The notes beneath the pieces are model-generated. The model had not been told where the DNA came from and did no database searches. It was given only the letters and a program-made list of their open reading frames with translations. Positions 3,667 to 11,590 of a DNA stretch of 64,000 nucleotides are shown here, piece after piece. Every line of letters starts with the position of its first letter. The stretch's first letter is position 1. The stretch lies in NCBI GenBank assembly GCA_022072055.1, contig JAJVIK010000002.1, positions 293,615-357,614 on the forward strand, read 5' to 3'. Made by a program: the position numbers and the translations under genes. This DNA is from a bacterium (GTDB lineage Bacteria; Hinthialibacterota; Hinthialibacteria; OLB16).

Positions 3667-3841
3667 GGGATGGCTCCTTGATCTGATTCGCGGGAATGGA
3701 CCGGCGAGGGGCATTTTAGGGAGGAGAGAGCGGAAAGGAACCCGAACGGCGCGCCCGCGAAGGGCGGTCTGCTTCTCAATTCCATCCCCCGCGAAGTAGT
3801 ATCGCGGATATGACTCTCACCTCGTGATTTTGGAGGACCTC

Positions 3842-4603
3842 ATGCGTAAAAAGTTCGTGGCCGGAAACTGGAAGATGTATTGTGGCGATCCCGCCAAGGC
3901 GGTGGAGCTCGCCAAGGGGGTTGTGGCGAGCGTGGGAAGCCAAGCCGCCGTGGAAGCGGCCGTGTGCCCTCCTGCCACCGCGCTCGCGGCGGTCGTCACA
4001 GCCTGCGCGGGCTCCCAGGTCGGAGTCGGAGGCCAGAACCTCTATCCCAAGGATGAGGGCGCCTTCACCGGCGAGCTTTCGGCCCCGTTTCTCAAGGCCC
4101 TCGGCTGTCGCTACGTGATCCTCGGTCACAGCGAGCGGCGGACGTACTTCAAGGAGGATGACGCCTTCATCAACCTCAAGGTCAAGGCCGCGCTGACCGC
4201 CGATCTCGTTCCGATCTTCTGTTGCGGGGAAACCGAACAAGAGCGCGAACAGGGGATCACCGAAAAGGTGGTCGAGGCCCAGGTTCGCGGGGGCTTGGCC
4301 GGTTTGGATGTTGAACAGTTGGGCAAGGTTGTGGTGGCCTACGAGCCGGTCTGGGCCATCGGCACAGGGAAAAACGCCACTCCGGAGGATGCGCAGGCGG
4401 TCCATGCCTTCATCCGCGGGCTTCTCGGCTCTCTCGCCAGCGCCTCCGTGGCGGAGAGCATTCGGATTCAGTACGGCGGGAGCGTGAAACCCGACAACGC
4501 CGCCACGCTGCTCTCTCAGAAGGACATCGATGGCGCACTGGTCGGCGGGGCGAGCCTGAAGGCCGACTCCTTCGCCGCCATCATCCAGGCCGCCGGAGGC
4601 TGA
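3842..4603 (+). CDS. tpiA: Triosephosphate isomerase
   Basis: This 253-residue protein interconverts dihydroxyacetone phosphate and glyceraldehyde-3-phosphate in glycolysis. All signatures are present: GNWKM with substrate-binding Lys11, GHSERR with catalytic His96, YEPVWAIGTGK with catalytic Glu168, and the phosphate-binding motifs QYGGSVKP and DGALVGGASL. Length is normal for the family. The start at 3842 has GGAGG at the right distance; an in-frame ATG 18 bases upstream lies before that site and is unlikely. A short inverted repeat (CCGCGA/TCGCGG, 3789-3807) lies in the leader. It is a lone gene, with pgk, gapA and secG absent. An RHS remnant begins directly after its stop codon. Confidence 0.97.
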   Translation: MRKKFVAGNWKMYCGDPAKAVELAKGVVASVGSQAAVEAAVCPPATALAAVVTACAGSQVGVGGQNLYPKDEGAFTGELSAPFLKALGCRYVILGHSERRTYFKEDDAFINLKVKAALTADLVPIFCCGETEQEREQGITEKVVEAQVRGGLAGLDVEQLGKVVVAYEPVWAIGTGKNATPEDAQAVHAFIRGLLGSLASASVAESIRIQYGGSVKPDNAATLLSQKDIDGALVGGASLKADSFAAIIQAAGG

Positions 4604-4621
4604 GTGATCCAGGAATCTCCG

Positions 4622-5043
4622 ACCGCCCCACTCCGCTCTCATACCACCTGTGGTGGAAGAGATAGAGGCCCGTGAACGGATCGATCCATTTCCCGGTCTG
4701 GTGTTCCGTGATCCCAGCGTTGCGCGCGGTCTGCCACGAGGTCCCCGCGAAGGGGGAGATCGACAGTTCGTTCCCGAACGCATCCTGGCTGAACCAGTAC
4801 ACCTCTTCCCCATCATCGGAGAGAATCACCCACACATTCCCGACCGGATCATACACATACGCGTAGTCGGTGGTCGAGGAGGGCGTGGTGCTCTGGCCGT
4901 TGGCGTAGAGGTACGCGCGTTTGCCGAGTTGCGCGCCGAGCGCGCCGGGGCGGTGGCTGTTCACCTCCACATGCCGCCAAGCGGTCTCGCCCGCCTCGAT
5001 CACCCCATCGCCGTCCGTGTCCACCCGCTGATCCACGCGCATT
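4622..5043 (-). pseudogene. RHS core remnant (copy A), truncated at both ends
   Basis: Translation on the minus strand gives the RHS-associated core found in the two other copies of this window (RVDQRVDTDGDGVIEAGET, YAYVYDPVGNVWVIL, WIDPFTGLY, RWYESGVGR). Homology begins abruptly near 5040, inside the core. It ends at GVGR, exactly where the variable tip should start, so no toxin tip is left. The frame then runs into unrelated sequence overlapping the end of tpiA. The upstream edge abuts a 14-bp tandem repeat. No plausible start codon with a ribosome-binding site exists. It is best read as a decayed leftover of the RHS array rather than a functional gene. Confidence 0.8.
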
Positions 5044-5140
5044 GTCATACCCTCGTTGTCACACCCTCGTTGTCACACCCTCGTTGTCACACCCTCGTTG
5101 TCACACCCTCGTTGTCACACCCTCGTTGTCACACCCTCGA
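5043..5140. repeat. 14-bp tandem repeat, about seven copies
   Basis: The unit ACCCTCGTTGTCAC repeats head to tail without spacers from 5049, with a slightly diverged first copy and a last copy that merges into the REP-like element beginning near 5128. It lies between the RHS remnant and the immunity-like gene. The unit equals the outer arm of that palindrome, so it probably arose by slippage or amplification of the arm. Confidence 0.9.
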
Positions 5141-5201
5141 AAGTGGGTATCCGTCTGGCCACCACGCCTCTCTGGACTCCCGCCTGCACGGGAAGGACGT
5201 G
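5128..5201. repeat. REP-like imperfect palindrome
   Basis: The left arm GTCACACCCTCGAAAGTGGG and the right arm CTGGACTCCCGCCTGCACGG flank a short centre and are imperfect inverted repeats. The pattern (a GGA-TCC core with GGGAATGAC-like ends) resembles the dispersed palindromic element of many bacteria whose spurious translation reads VIPAQAGIQ or DSRLRGND; here one frame reads LDSRLHGKD. I see only one copy in this window. Such elements are mobilised by REP-associated Y1 transposases; none is visible here. Confidence 0.6.
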
Positions 5202-5364
5202 ATCAGTCGCCACCATTCCTTCAACCGCTGGCGCTCTTATCCATTTTCGCGCCAAGCGGATTGGGATAGGAGCCCCCGTGTGTGTTGTGGCGAGAAGGAA
5301 TTCATGTCTCAGAACCGTGGACGGACTTGAAGCATCACCACAGACACATCCGTCTTGAATTCAC

Positions 5365-5856
5365 TCAAGTAACATTGTCTTCTGGGATCCATCCTTCCGC
5401 GATCCTCTGGACCCAACTTCGGGCCTCTCTGAGCCTACTGACAGGCCCGAAAAGCATGATATAGACAAGAGGTTCCACGTCATCTGGTGCATCAACGTAT
5501 CCCGTGAACCCACCCCGCCAAATGGCTGCTGGTAGTGAAAGGGAATTTGAGGTGAGGATGGAGTCGGGGTGTTCGAAGGGGTTTTCATCTCCTGCTAATT
5601 GTTCAACGACGTGGTCCTCCACACGGTACCCCCAGCGGCCTCCAAATGCGAATGTCCTCGCTCCGTGATCAAACCAGAAATGAAAAAGTGACGTTATGTC
5701 AGTGATAGGGATCCTCTTGCCGCAATCCCAAACAACAATCGCCGGATAATTGTCAATACACCACTTATTGATGTCACTTGGCAATTGAACGGAAACTCCA
5801 AGAACTCTCTTACTCAACATCATTCCAAGTAGAATAGGCGTCCTCTTTCCAATCAT
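5365..5856 (-). CDS. Hypothetical protein, candidate immunity protein for RHS tip B
   Basis: This 163-residue soluble-looking protein begins MIGKRTPILLGMMLSKRV. No family could be named with confidence. It starts 13 bases after the stop codon of the RHS copy B gene, with a GGAG-type site just before the ATG, so the two are probably co-translated. Its base composition is clearly AT-richer than the neighbouring chromosome and matches the tip of copy B rather than the conserved core. A small unrelated gene directly behind a variable RHS C-terminus is the usual position of an immunity gene in polymorphic toxin loci, so that role is inferred from context only. Confidence 0.6.
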   Translation of the reverse strand: MIGKRTPILLGMMLSKRVLGVSVQLPSDINKWCIDNYPAIVVWDCGKRIPITDITSLFHFWFDHGARTFAFGGRWGYRVEDHVVEQLAGDENPFEHPDSILTSNSLSLPAAIWRGGFTGYVDAPDDVEPLVYIMLFGPVSRLREARSWVQRIAEGWIPEDNVT

Positions 5857-5869
5857 CGCTCACTCCAGC

Positions 5870-7057
5870 CTAATATGCTCCCCCTTGACAAAGGCCGGGG
5901 TCTATTAAATCGATTACCCATCCCCATGGATCCCCACCATCCCCATCCATCGAGCATGATCCAGTGGGACACGAGGCGTTTCCATCGCACGGGAGGCATG
6001 GCGTGCAACAGGCAATCGTGAATAAGCTCTTCCAGGTCGTCTCCTTGCCATTCTTCCACGTCCCATTCGCCTTTCGCTTTGCGAATTCATTGAAAAAACA
6101 TGCAAGTAGTGAAATCTGGTTCGACGCCTGTCCCTCGACACCTCGTTCAATATGTTTTGCGATTGTGGCAGCTGTGCTTTGAATTCCCTTTTCGATTTGT
6201 TCATCGTCCAAGTTACACAGGTCTCGTATCGTTCCGGCATGCTTTCCAGCTACAGGCAAACAGTTCCTCTTGCAGAGGCTCTTCACCAAATCACCAAGGC
6301 AAGTGCCACCCCTCCGGAGACAATCTACGATAGGGTTGAGCGAGATAAGCCCCGTTGTGTCAAACCATGTGACTGGATTATTGGCAGAGTATTCATACGG
6401 CATTTCCCAATACATTGGCAGTGTGGTCCTCCCCACAAACCTCCCCACTCCCGCGTCCAGCCAGCGGGCGTGGAAATAGTAGAGGCCCGTGAACGGGTCG
6501 ATCCATTTCCCCGTCTGGTGTTCCGTGATGCCCACGGTGCGCGCGGTCTGCCACGAGGTTCCCGCGAAGGGGGAGATCGACAGTTCGTTCCCGAACGCAT
6601 CCTGGCTGAACCAGTACACCTCTTCCCCCATGTCCGACAGAATCACCCACACATTGCCGACCGGATCATACACATACGCGTAGTCGGTGGTCGAGGAGGG
6701 CGTGGTGCTCTGGCCGTTGGCGTAGAGGTAAGCGCGTTTGCCGAGTTGTGCGCCGAGCGCGCCGGGCCGGTGGCTGTTCACCTCCACATGCCGCCAAGCG
6801 GTCTCCCCCGCCTCGATCACCCCATCACCGTCCGTGTCCACCCGCTGATCCACCCGCAAGAGGTTGAGGCCGTCGTACTCATAGCGCCGCTCCTGAATGA
6901 TGTTCCCGGACTGGCTCGTGCTGTACTCGCGCCGCTTGGAGAGCGCCCCATCGCAGGACAGGCAGTACTCGTACTCGACCTTGCCCGCGTAGGTGTCGGA
7001 GGTCCCGGTGAACTTCTCCGCCTTGGTCTGGAACCGGGCTTCATCAGCTTTGCTCAT
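5870..7057 (-). CDS. RHS core with Cys-rich variable tip (orphan tip cassette B)
   Basis: The 395-residue frame starts MSKADEARFQ and enters the RHS core at once (KAEKFTGTSDTYAGKVEYEY). The core ends with GVGRFVGRT, a variant of the usual GVGRFVSWDP, followed by PYEYSANNPVTW. The last 170 residues form a separate tip rich in Cys (LFTIACCTPCLPCDGNASCP) without a recognisable nuclease or ADP-ribosyltransferase motif. It lacks the thousand or more N-terminal residues, signal and YD repeats of a full RHS protein. The ATG lies 4 bases after the stop of the preceding immunity-like gene, without a clear ribosome-binding site, so it may be silent, coupled, or a reservoir that recombines into a full rhs gene through the core. 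Confidence 0.7.
   Translation of the reverse strand: MSKADEARFQTKAEKFTGTSDTYAGKVEYEYCLSCDGALSKRREYSTSQSGNIIQERRYEYDGLNLLRVDQRVDTDGDGVIEAGETAWRHVEVNSHRPGALGAQLGKRAYLYANGQSTTPSSTTDYAYVYDPVGNVWVILSDMGEEVYWFSQDAFGNELSISPFAGTSWQTARTVGITEHQTGKWIDPFTGLYYFHARWLDAGVGRFVGRTTLPMYWEMPYEYSANNPVTWFDTTGLISLNPIVDCLRRGGTCLGDLVKSLCKRNCLPVAGKHAGTIRDLCNLDDEQIEKGIQSTAATIAKHIERGVEGQASNQISLLACFFNEFAKRKANGTWKNGKETTWKSLFTIACCTPCLPCDGNASCPTGSCSMDGDGGDPWGWVIDLIDPGLCQGGAY
6441..7027 (-). repeat. RHS core repeat, copy B
   Basis: This stretch is nearly identical to 8041-8628 and, over its lower-coordinate two thirds, to 4622-5040. The homology ends sharply on both sides: at the start of the variable tip, and at 7027 where the 5' part of the core is missing. 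Such repeats allow homologous exchange of tips. Confidence 0.85.
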
Positions 7058-7061
7058 TGCG

Positions 7062-7523
7062 CTATTTCTGAGGAGATGCAGATCGCCACATGAATGCAAG
7101 TATGCTGACCACAATCACTAAGATCGCGAGCATGCATGTCGCAATACTCACGCGTGTCAATATATTAGAAAAAGCATGGCCCAATCCATCAGATCCGTTA
7201 CGAACAAGTATGAGATCGCATAGGGATATTGCGAGGAGAAGGAAGACACCATAAACAAGGGAAATGATAACAGGACATGCACGTCTAGGGATAGAGGCGA
7301 TTCGCAGTGCAGCCAGGAGCGGATGCCATGAAGCGAAAAGAAATCCGACCCAGGATGCTATTAATGCCGTGATCAATCTCCAACCAATAACCGTATCTGT
7401 CGATACTATACGATCCACCACGATTACAACAAGTGTTACACACAGGCAGAGCAAGGCACCCTGAGCAGCAACGTATATCCTAAGTCCGCCAATTACAGTT
7501 CTGTCGTTCTTGCCTCGTCCCAT
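7062..7523 (-). CDS. Small membrane protein, candidate immunity protein for RHS tip C
   Basis: This 153-residue protein begins MGRGKNDRTVIGG and has four hydrophobic segments: YVAAQGALLCLCVTLVVIVV, LITALIASWVGFLF, CPVIISLVYGVFLLLAIS and ATCMLAILVIVVSILAFM. The start at 7523 lies 4 bases after the stop of RHS copy C. A longer in-frame ORF upstream is antisense to that tip and was not used. Composition is AT-rich like the tip. Position and membrane location fit an immunity protein against a toxin acting at the inner membrane, and the copy C tip itself has a long hydrophobic segment. No family is recognised; the role is inferred from position. Confidence 0.6.
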   Translation of the reverse strand: MGRGKNDRTVIGGLRIYVAAQGALLCLCVTLVVIVVDRIVSTDTVIGWRLITALIASWVGFLFASWHPLLAALRIASIPRRACPVIISLVYGVFLLLAISLCDLILVRNGSDGLGHAFSNILTRVSIATCMLAILVIVVSILAFMWRSASPQK

Positions 7524-7527
7524 TGTC

Positions 7528-8703
7528 TCACTCCGGTGTCTGCAGATCTTGTACAATATCCTCAACATGGTCCAGGATGGCATGGCAGGTGTCCCGACAA
7601 AAGTTGTTGCCTTTAACGTCATCAAGGAGTCTGTTGACATTGGCAATGTGCGCTTCCACCTTGGCCTTTGTCGTAAGTGCTTCCGGATCAGTTAGTAATT
7701 GCGGGTTGTTGATGAATAATGCGGATACTGTGGCGGAGAGCGCAATTGCTCTTGCCCTGCACTTCAAGTCTAGCACAGCGATGAGGAGAAGTAAGCTGAT
7801 TATGAGAGCAATCAAGACGACGATCAAACCAACCAATACAATTGAAGATTCCCCATTGGGATCGGGATAGATCACGGGATTTCCGAGGCTGATGCTGTAA
7901 GGATTTAGAGACACAGGATTGTACAGATTCAAATATGTCATGGGATGGGCCGAGATTGGAGCATTCGTCCCACCACATAATTGACAACCAGAGTCAACTG
8001 ACACAACCGCCGACCTGAGAGCTGGGTCCCAGCTCACGAACCTCCCCACCCCGCTGTCATACCACCTGGCCGAAAAGTAGTACAAGCCCGTGAACGGATC
8101 GATCCATTTCCCCGTCTGGTGTTCCGTGATCCCCGCGTTGCGCGCGGTCTGCCACGAGGTTCCCGCGAAGGGGGAGATCGACAATTCGTTCCCAAAAGCA
8201 TCCTGGCTGAACCAGTACACCTCTTCCCCCATGTCCGACAGAATCACCCACACATTGCCGACCGGATCATACACATACGCGTAGTCGGTGGTCGAGGAGG
8301 GCGTGGTGCTCTGGCCGCTGGCGTAGAGGTACGCGCGTTTGCCGAGTTGCGCGCCGAGCGCGCCGGGGCGGTGGCTGTTCACCTCCACATGCCGCCAAGC
8401 GGTCTCCCCCGCCTCGATCACCCCATCGCCGTCCGTGTCCACCCGCTGATCCACCCGCAACAGGTTGAGGCCGTCGTACTCATAGCGCCGCTCCTGAACG
8501 ATGTTCCCGGACTGGGTGGTGCTGTACTCCCGCCGCTTGGAGAGCGCTCCGTCGCACGAGAGGCAGTACTCGTACTCGACCTTGCCCGCATAGGTGTCGG
8601 AGGTCCCGGTGAACTTCTCCGCCTTGGTCATCTGATCCCTCGGATTCCAGGAATACACCCACTTCTCCTGCTTCGTCCCCGCGCCGTTCTGTTTCTCGGC
8701 CAT
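7528..8703 (-). CDS. RHS core with membrane-helix tip (cassette C), 5'-truncated
   Basis: RHS similarity starts near 8740 (LYTYDTNGNL), passes through YSWNPRDQM and the core shared with copies A and B, and ends with GVGRFVSWDP. The tip of about 160 residues has the hydrophobic segment IVLVGLIVVLIALIISLLLL followed by a soluble helical part with two Cys (FCRDTCHAILDHVEDIVQDL). The ATG at 8703 is the first start inside RHS sequence. The frame stays open to 9069, but that part is antisense to the next gene and has no RHS similarity. The body of the rhs gene is absent from the window, so this is the head of an orphan array, probably cut off by a rearrangement near 8740. Confidence 0.65.
   Translation of the reverse strand: MAEKQNGAGTKQEKWVYSWNPRDQMTKAEKFTGTSDTYAGKVEYEYCLSCDGALSKRREYSTTQSGNIVQERRYEYDGLNLLRVDQRVDTDGDGVIEAGETAWRHVEVNSHRPGALGAQLGKRAYLYASGQSTTPSSTTDYAYVYDPVGNVWVILSDMGEEVYWFSQDAFGNELSISPFAGTSWQTARNAGITEHQTGKWIDPFTGLYYFSARWYDSGVGRFVSWDPALRSAVVSVDSGCQLCGGTNAPISAHPMTYLNLYNPVSLNPYSISLGNPVIYPDPNGESSIVLVGLIVVLIALIISLLLLIAVLDLKCRARAIALSATVSALFINNPQLLTDPEALTTKAKVEAHIANVNRLLDDVKGNNFCRDTCHAILDHVEDIVQDLQTPE
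8041..8628 (-). repeat. RHS core repeat, copy C
   Basis: This is the counterpart of 6441-7027 and, in part, of 4622-5040, differing at scattered single bases. It retains a little more upstream core (to about 8740) than copy B. Confidence 0.85.
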
Positions 8704-8740
8704 GGTCAAGTTGCCGTTCGTGTCATAAGTGTACAGCCAG

Positions 8741-8953: not shown

Positions 8954-11590
8954 GTGAAACGCTTCCTTGTCCTTCTCTTTCTTCTGAGCGCTGTTCGGTC
9001 CGCGCAATCCCAGGGAGACCTCCCAGGGGGTGGGGATGTCTTTTCGGTCCGCCTGCTGCCCGGCTTCACCGAATCCGGGAGCGCCTACCGTCCCAACCAA
9101 TGGATTCCGCTCAACCTGGAGGTCGATAACCCCACCGACCGGGAGATCGCCACCACCCTGCTCGTCACCCCCAAGTCCGACAGCACCCTGGTCGAATCCC
9201 GCGTCGAGGTCCCGATTCGCTTCGCGCCGGGCCAGCGGAAGCTGATCCGCGCGCTGGGCATGCTCCCCGAATTCACTCAAGACCTGGAAGTCAGTCTTTT
9301 TCCCGGTCCCTTCAGGGAGCCGCTCGCTACAGTCGGGGTCCGTGCCATGGATGAACGCGAGCGCCTGGTCGTGGTCTTGGCGGAAAGGACCCGAACCTAC
9401 AGTTGGCTGGAGAGCTCGGTGGGGGGCGAGGACCTCGCCGGTCGGCGGCTGGTGACCGTTCAGACCCTGTCTCGCAGCGAACTCCTGCCGGAAAGAGTCC
9501 AGGGTTATGACAGCATTTCGATGTTGGTCTGGGATGGACTCCGACCGGACCCGACCACCCCGGAACAGATGGAGGCGCTGCTGGAGTATGTCGAGCTCGG
9601 CGGGACCCTGGTGCTGGCGCTCGGAGATCGCGGCGAGTTCCTGAATGCCCCAGGATGGTCGCGTCTCCTCGAGGGGATCCTCGCGGGGAGCGAGCCGCTC
9701 CTGCTCCCCAAGGGGGTGATCCGGAAAAAGACTCCCGCCTCGCGCTCCCTACGGAGCGCGGTTTTCGAGTGGACCACGGATCCGGCCGGTGGGCCGACCT
9801 CCGCCACCGCGGGCGCGGTGCTGGTGGCGCGCGGGAGCTTCACCGGCGAAGCCTGCGTCTCCCTGGATGGGACCCCGGTGCTGTTCCGGAGGGACCACGG
9901 CGCGGGCAGAGTCTTTGTCTCGACCCTCTCCTTCGGAGATTGGGCCAAATTCGGGGGCAACGGAACGGACCCTTGGCGGGGGCTTGTGGAGAGCCTCCCG
10001 ATGCACGCCCCTTCGTTTTCGCGGGAGCTTTCCCCCTTCAACCTGTACCTCAAGGTTTCGTTACTCGGCGAGCTCCCCGGCCCGCTCTTCATCGGCGGAT
10101 TTCTCGGGCTTTATACCGTCCTGGTCATCCCGGTGAACTACTTTGTGTTTCGGAAACGCAAGCGGAGGGAGCTGGCGTGGCTGTTCCTTCCGCCGCTTGC
10201 GATTGGGTTTTCCCTCTTGGCCTATCAGATGGGCGCGCTCCAGCAGAAGGGGGGAATTCTCCAACGCGGGATCACGGTCGCCTTTCAGCCCCACAATAGC
10301 CGTTATGCGCGCGCTCAAACCATGACCGGAGTCTATTCGCCGGCCCGGCGGAACTTCGCCGTCCGCTCCGATCCCTCCGCGCTCCCGATCCCCGCCCAGA
10401 TGGAAGAGTACAGTTTGCGGAACACCCTCCATCGTGTGGCCTTTCGGCCCGATCCCGCGGGCGGTTCCACCCAGGTCCTACCCCCGGAGCTTCTGGTTTA
10501 CACCTGGGCCTCCTCGAACCTGGCGCTGGACACGGTCGTGGACCTCGGCGGACCGATGCTCGCGGAGATCCGCCAGGGCGAAAACAGCCGTGTGCTCCAT
10601 TTCTCCAACCACAGCCGATTCGCCATCTCCGGCCTGGGGGTGACTGTCCTCGGGGCGAGCGCCAACCTCGGAGCCTTGGGCGCCCTACCCTCCGGGGCCA
10701 GCCGAGAGGTGGATCTGCGGGAAGTGGGGATGGGATCGCTGCCTGACACCATGCTCCGAAACCGGTACGGGAGCTCGATTTATTACGCCCGCCAGTTCGA
10801 AAACAAGCCGCTCCAGGCTTTCGTCGACCAGGAGGGTCGAACTTATCTGACCGGTCTGCCGGAAATCCTCATGAGCGGGGGACGGAGGTTCCTGGATGAT
10901 TTCGGCGCCTCGGATTCGGACCTTTCGGGCGCGTACTGTCTCGCGGAAATCCATGCCTCCATCGCGCCCATTGAGATCGAGCCGCCTCCCATCGGGAACG
11001 AATCCGTCTCCTTTGTCCTCTTGCCCGTGGCGGTGCGGCAGTTGTCTTCCTTCTTTGAGATCCATCCGTCCGATTGGGATGTGTATGTCATCAAGGCCTC
11101 CACACAGGTATCGCGCGGGTCCTCCTATGAGAACCTCACCATGGGCGCTCAGATTCGACCCACCGAGCCGCTGGTGCTTATCGGCGGGGGAACGGATACC
11201 GTCACCGGGGAACTCTTCTTCCGTCCCGCGCAACGAGGAAAACTCAGTCCGCTCTCGCTTTCCACCAGCTTCCCCAAGAAATCTCCCGAAGACAGATCCG
11301 TACAGGGTGGTTGGGGTTTCATGAGCGGTTTGATCTCCGATGTCACCTGGGAGGTCCAAGACCCAACATCCGGGGGATGGATGCGACTCCGGCAAGAGGA
11401 GGAGCTTCGAGGGGATGCCCTGCGGGCGAGCTGGGAAAGGGAGGGCGGGGCGTTACGCGTGCGCTTCAAGGCGATCTCCTCCCTTAAGGAGTTTAGGACG
11501 TCCTGGATGCGCATGGGGATCACCCTTCCCGAACTTTCTCTCAGAGTCCAAAACCTGGAGGATCAAGCGGATGCCGGAAAACAAGAGTGA
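8954..11590 (+). CDS. Large exported/membrane protein of unknown function
   Basis: The protein has 878 residues. I place the start at the GTG at 8954 because the signal peptide begins there (VKRFLVLLFLLSAVRS, then AQSQG); the in-frame extension upstream is not protein-like and no strong ribosome-binding site is seen. Residues about 20-360 are a beta-rich exported domain with a segment (YDSISMLVWDGL, EYVELGGTLVLALGD) like the glutamine-amidotransferase-like fold of envelope proteins. Two transmembrane helices follow near residues 375-430 (PLFIGGFLGLYTVLVIPVNY and LFLPPLAIGFSLLAYQ), separated by the basic stretch RKRKRRE. A long C-terminal exported region completes it. The 3' end overlaps the sulfatase start by 20 bases, so the two are probably co-translated. 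Confidence 0.75.
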   Translation: MKRFLVLLFLLSAVRSAQSQGDLPGGGDVFSVRLLPGFTESGSAYRPNQWIPLNLEVDNPTDREIATTLLVTPKSDSTLVESRVEVPIRFAPGQRKLIRALGMLPEFTQDLEVSLFPGPFREPLATVGVRAMDERERLVVVLAERTRTYSWLESSVGGEDLAGRRLVTVQTLSRSELLPERVQGYDSISMLVWDGLRPDPTTPEQMEALLEYVELGGTLVLALGDRGEFLNAPGWSRLLEGILAGSEPLLLPKGVIRKKTPASRSLRSAVFEWTTDPAGGPTSATAGAVLVARGSFTGEACVSLDGTPVLFRRDHGAGRVFVSTLSFGDWAKFGGNGTDPWRGLVESLPMHAPSFSRELSPFNLYLKVSLLGELPGPLFIGGFLGLYTVLVIPVNYFVFRKRKRRELAWLFLPPLAIGFSLLAYQMGALQQKGGILQRGITVAFQPHNSRYARAQTMTGVYSPARRNFAVRSDPSALPIPAQMEEYSLRNTLHRVAFRPDPAGGSTQVLPPELLVYTWASSNLALDTVVDLGGPMLAEIRQGENSRVLHFSNHSRFAISGLGVTVLGASANLGALGALPSGASREVDLREVGMGSLPDTMLRNRYGSSIYYARQFENKPLQAFVDQEGRTYLTGLPEILMSGGRRFLDDFGASDSDLSGAYCLAEIHASIAPIEIEPPPIGNESVSFVLLPVAVRQLSSFFEIHPSDWDVYVIKASTQVSRGSSYENLTMGAQIRPTEPLVLIGGGTDTVTGELFFRPAQRGKLSPLSLSTSFPKKSPEDRSVQGGWGFMSGLISDVTWEVQDPTSGGWMRLRQEEELRGDALRASWEREGGALRVRFKAISSLKEFRTSWMRMGITLPELSLRVQNLEDQADAGKQE

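Follow-up and report, generated by a model that had tools for sequence, protein, structure and literature searches.

What does a bacterium keep in a locus where one RHS core is repeated three times, two of the copies end in different tips, and no full-length rhs gene is found beside them? We followed this question in a window of 64,000 nt, the whole stretch of DNA analysed here, whose coordinates equal those of locus L046 minus 5615. At 4622-8739 on its minus strand lie three tandem direct copies of the core (C, B and A in the direction of reading) with about 90-94% DNA identity. The 300-nt core copies were located at 4617, 6434 and 8035 with 89-91% identity to a reference copy, and full-length alignment to copy C gave 94% for copy B (7028-6434) and 93% for copy A (5041-4622).

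Layout of the array

Read 5' to 3' along the minus strand, copy C is followed after 4 nt by a 153-aa gene, after another 4 nt by copy B, after 13 nt by a 163-aa gene, and then by a 14-nt repeat and the stub of copy A. Up to the second small gene, this spacing looks like that of an operon. A GGAG motif stands upstream of the ATG of both small genes. The GC content of the cores is 0.62-0.64, that of the tips 0.48 and 0.50 and that of the small genes 0.47 and 0.49, compared with 0.61 for the window. Outside the motif region the two tips are unrelated to each other. The array is flanked on the plus strand by the convergent tpiA (triosephosphate isomerase, 3824-4603; PF00121, E 3e-95) and by a divergent gene (8987-11590, with an approximate start near 8990 or slightly upstream) that resembles DUF4350/ThuA only below the cut-off. 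No tRNA genes were found at the locus, nor any Rfam family inside it, and an empty-site comparison found that the two flanking genes are not adjacent in sister genera.

Copy C comprises an RHS core of ~243 aa (8010-8739, minus strand as for all array genes; TIGR03696, 38.2 bits) and a tip of ~160 aa (7528-8009), in which the motif NPVIYPDPNG is followed by a single transmembrane-type helix and then by a polar tail of short length. Hydropathy gave a single strong hydrophobic helix in the tip (tip residues 74-92) versus about four hydrophobic segments in the 153-aa product of candidate immunity gene C (7062-7523). The stop codon of copy C (7528-7530) is separated by 4 nt from the ATG of this gene at 7523. 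RHS similarity ends at 8739, where the 5' end is truncated. The 205 nt preceding it occur only once in the genome, which excluded a repeated sequence upstream of copy C, and neither a convincing start codon nor a good ribosome site was found near the truncated end.

Copy B is a complete ORF of 395 aa (5870-7057; TIGR03696, 38.3 bits), with the core at 7028-6434 and the tip at ~6433-5870. Its in-frame ATG at 7057 lies 4 nt past the stop of candidate immunity gene C (7062); about ten extra codons precede the core, and RHS similarity ends at 7028. Copy B is translatable in its present form. No N-terminal PAAR or other delivery domain was found in this ORF with Pfam. Tip B contains 13 Cys and the motif variant NPVTWFDTTG. 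Between its stop codon (5870-5872) and the ATG (5856) of candidate immunity gene B (5365-5856; 163 aa, soluble, GGAG upstream) are 13 nt, and neither the tip nor its neighbour has a hydrophobic segment. A PDB sequence search with this neighbour gave no useful match; a hit to a flagellin hook motif (E 0.004, 31 residues) was taken as chance. A single-sequence AlphaFold model of the same protein was uninformative (pLDDT 33) and was discarded.

Copy A (4622-5041) is a core remnant without a tip, recognised by alignment to copy C. It starts at the GTATGACAATGCGCGTGGA junction between repeat and core, also found at locus L055, and breaks off where core would pass into tip, leaving about 19 nt to the stop codon of tpiA; its tip would have been lost through a deletion that reached this stop. 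A tandem array of the 14-nt repeat (CACCCTCGTTGTCA; repeat family D2) occupies 5034-5140, between candidate immunity gene B and copy A. The NCBIfam model Rhs_assc_core matched copies C and B above the cut-off and copy A below it. Each of the three cores has the same promoter-like site (8295, 6694 and 4877; 9/12 matches), but because it falls within conserved coding sequence we treat it as no more than a lead.

The sequence-only reading had described three tandem cores on one strand, a copy A that has lost its tip and a copy C that stops being RHS near 8740, with small genes 4 and 13 nt behind the tips and an AT-rich composition common to tips and small genes. All of this was borne out, including the exact distances, as were the membrane-helix tip C with its four-helix neighbour, the Cys-rich tip B with its soluble one, and the overall layout of an orphan module: two differing tips, each with a tightly linked gene, plus a tip-less third copy. 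It had also placed neither tip in a recognised toxin class, and indeed no Pfam, NCBIfam or PADLOC family and no homologue among 386 genomes was found for the tips or the small genes. A plasmid tblastn search with tip B gave no useful match. Weak Kelch/EF-hand matches of the cores were taken as chance.

The core family in the genome

At the protein level the core matches the assembly (5.86 Mb, 32 contigs, 96.6% complete) 23 times, spread over about a dozen loci, one of which is the window array. At least ten short tip-bearing modules of the array core are scattered through the genome. The Rhs_assc_core model gave 11 matches, ten of them in short ORFs (277-673 aa, copies C and B included) and one in a 2360-aa rhs gene, which the core search did not match and which is unrelated to the array core. 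No long ORF with the array core was found in the genome, whose assembly has gaps, and a query with upstream YD-shell sequence returned short stretches only. A search covering the T6SS sheath gene VipB/TssC (PF05943) found it absent from the genome. Two contig ends (the end of contig C10 and the start of contig C7) fall within the array core, so the absence of a parent gene is not proven; the core copy at the end of contig C10 has a truncated 5' junction like that of copy C, and no shell. The earlier claim that the main gene has gone stands in part: our search found no full-length rhs gene of this core, but nothing shows that one was once at the locus and was later lost, and with the core dispersed over about a dozen loci the claim becomes a statement about the whole genome.

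The sister genus G002 has 25 core matches, and there an open 1002-aa rhs gene of the array-core type runs into a contig end and has an orphan downstream of it. Another genome of the same class (G010) carries five RHS cores with differing tips and small genes on a 6.3-kb contig (C86, locus L104). As the 25 matches and the five copies show, short tandem modules are habitual in this lineage.

No stop codons interrupt the cores of C, B, A, L047, L048 and L049, and within this 91% family dN/dS was 0.03-0.22 for all but the last few pairs. The cores thus differ mainly by synonymous changes. This speaks against a long period of decay, although the pattern may have arisen in full-length ancestors, before the truncation. 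Five modules share the 5' junction GG.TGTACA beside unrelated DNA (copy C at 8739, L047:10202, L049:14879, L051:10611 and L053:8871). For five of eight random breakpoints to fall within 9 nt, the chance is about 5 in a million, a figure to be read with the caution that the breakpoints are possibly not independent. We consider it doubtful that the headless modules are a mobile unit in which core, tip and immunity gene spread without a parent in this bacterial family, the 5' end being fixed at GG.TGTACA. Several arrays end in a core stub near the stop of a convergent gene, as copy A does at tpiA; such stubs would be explained by deletions that stopped short of a needed gene.

At L053:10986 and L058:6345 two core remnants break at core nt 593, directly beside the stops of different DUF1501-like genes. 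Two copies of a pair consisting of a large serine recombinase and a ~1055-aa protein (L047:13340-18021 and L057:2515-7257) each adjoin an RHS core remnant, and at L057 a ~60-nt stub of the 3' end of a DUF1501-like gene lies between recombinase and RHS. Small dispersed repeats of the IPAFAGMT and SPPPALSR-RERG types split core remnants at L053:10610-10691, at L055 (~9600-9670), and at L057 and L058. Since small repeats and deletions interrupt neighbouring core remnants, several loci are already decaying. A lone gene for a 113-aa membrane protein (L058:6612-6953) between two core remnants is possibly an immunity gene whose tip has been lost.

Tips and neighbours of the sibling modules

Behind a GC-rich core, tip and neighbour make up a single AT-rich block in each of eight further modules; across all modules the GC content was 0.61-0.66 for the core, 0.47-0.55 for the tip and 0.45-0.52 for the neighbour. 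The tip and neighbour ORFs were open in the modules examined. Tip and neighbour families change together across loci and genera. The tips of L047 and L055 are 46% identical (E 6e-38) and both have WD40 neighbours (E 2e-15); the tips of L048, L050 and L088 of the sister genus are related (E 4e-19 to 7e-6) and are followed by propeller-like neighbours (E 3e-10 to 1e-4); two modules at L089 of the sister genus have homologous neighbours (E 4e-13). A pairing between L051 and L090 was weak and unconfirmed.

At L053:8850-10013 (G000 C2:476725-477009) the tip is a serum amyloid A domain (PF00277, E 6e-11, above the cut-off; match to the human SAA1 structure, E 2e-6), the sole match to this family above the cut-off in the 386 genomes; the gene behind this tip encodes 161 aa and has a signal-like start. 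Prokaryotic SAA domains have been reported as polymorphic-toxin tips (PMC12419801). The tip of L056 carries HEFGHCCGCTH, a metzincin-like zinc site by its sequence. The neighbours are ankyrin at L054 and LRR at L056, both of which are described immunity types in the available part of the survey PMC3482391; the same part names neither WD40 nor propeller proteins as an immunity class. Many sibling neighbours begin with a hydrophobic signal-like stretch, which in some precedes a Cys, and the majority of tips are rich in Cys; several of these pairs may therefore act in the cell envelope.

Interpretation of the array

The array has these traits of orphan modules: Rhs_assc_core in copies C and B, a missing shell and a tip after an NPxxxxDPxG-like motif. 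The candidate immunity genes, directly downstream on the same strand, agree with such modules in position, spacing and composition, while a pairing of families was seen in the sibling modules only. Their usual context, a full-length parent rhs gene with the same core and often adjacent, was not found in this gapped assembly. On our best reading the array is mostly an orphan rhs module array of the known kind and, because the parent gene was sought and not found, we class it as a dispersed, apparently parentless variant. We put at roughly 65% the probability that it consists of two orphan Rhs toxin-immunity pairs (C with its membrane neighbour, B with its soluble neighbour) and one exhausted core. 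The assignment of tips and immunity genes made by the sequence-only reading gained indirect support, because sibling tip and neighbour families co-vary and the L053 tip is of the SAA type; for the window's own four proteins, which have no relatives, it rests on position and analogy. The layout, the spacing, the base composition, the dispersed family, the co-variation in siblings and the low dN/dS of the cores are observed; we infer toxicity, neutralisation, expression, maintenance and module movement, and for the window pairs toxicity and immunity from position.

Under this two-pair reading, each tip would be a toxin domain, neutralised by the product of the gene that immediately follows, and the RHS core would serve as the homology stretch for exchanging tip and immunity gene between loci. 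The most likely target of tip C is the membrane, where its neighbour would guard it; tip B would act elsewhere. Given the lack of a delivery shell, the modules are most likely kept as toxin-antitoxin-like pairs with internal expression, in which loss of the immunity gene would be costly, and as a tip reservoir.

Related systems are known. In Salmonella Typhimurium an rhs orphan likewise consists of a truncated core and a variable tip with a tightly linked small immunity gene (a candidate here), and this tip/immunity pair acts as a type II toxin-antitoxin module expressed from internal promoters, with neutralisation by binding (PMC7043789). That orphan, however, adjoins a full-length rhs gene beside a T6SS, whereas here about ten dispersed modules were found, none behind a long gene of the core, and the T6SS sheath gene was not found. 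The arrays described in PMC3482391 also have tip and immunity cassettes recombinable with a constant 5' gene body, including Imm-Ank and Imm-LRR types, but with a median of one active toxin per three cassettes, while here a complete toxin gene of the core was not found. The SAA (lipocone) toxin tips of prokaryotes (PMC12419801) are matched by the sibling L053, an SAA Rhs tip with a linked gene, and not by the tips of the window.

The modules might instead be relics, the decaying remains of once full-length rhs loci that no longer serve any function; we regard this as unlikely. The missing delivery shell, the tip-less core stubs that end most arrays, the small repeats within the cores of A, L053, L055, L057 and L058 and the lack of a clear start in copy C all fit such relics. 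Set against them are the open frames of all compared cores with their low dN/dS, the open tip and neighbour ORFs and the in-frame ATG of copy B just past the preceding gene. A full-length parent hidden in an assembly gap or contig break, which would make this an ordinary main-plus-orphan system compatible with the two-pair reading, is rather improbable in our judgement. The incomplete, 32-contig assembly, the two contig ends inside the core and the 1002-aa gene of the sister genus with its orphan behind leave room for it; the C-type junction in place of a shell at the end of contig C10, and the short stretches returned by the YD-shell query, point the other way. Finally, the tips may not be toxins nor the neighbours immunity genes, the RHS C-termini having a structural or surface role. 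The WD40 and propeller neighbours, which are not a named class in the available part of PMC3482391, would suit this reading, which is nevertheless very improbable given the co-variation of tips and neighbours, the SAA and zincin-like tips, the ankyrin and LRR neighbours and the AT-rich block of tip and neighbour in all modules measured.

The array supplies two tip/immunity candidates that fall into none of the families searched, including one pair of membrane type, and the genome adds sibling pairs whose WD40 and propeller partners are not an immunity class in that part of the survey. If the two-pair reading is true, Rhs toxin-immunity pairs are kept and spread in this lineage in the absence of the delivery gene that is commonly regarded as their justification, and a single genome holding about ten pairs would make it testable why orphan pairs persist, as a silent reservoir, as toxin-antitoxin systems or in decay.
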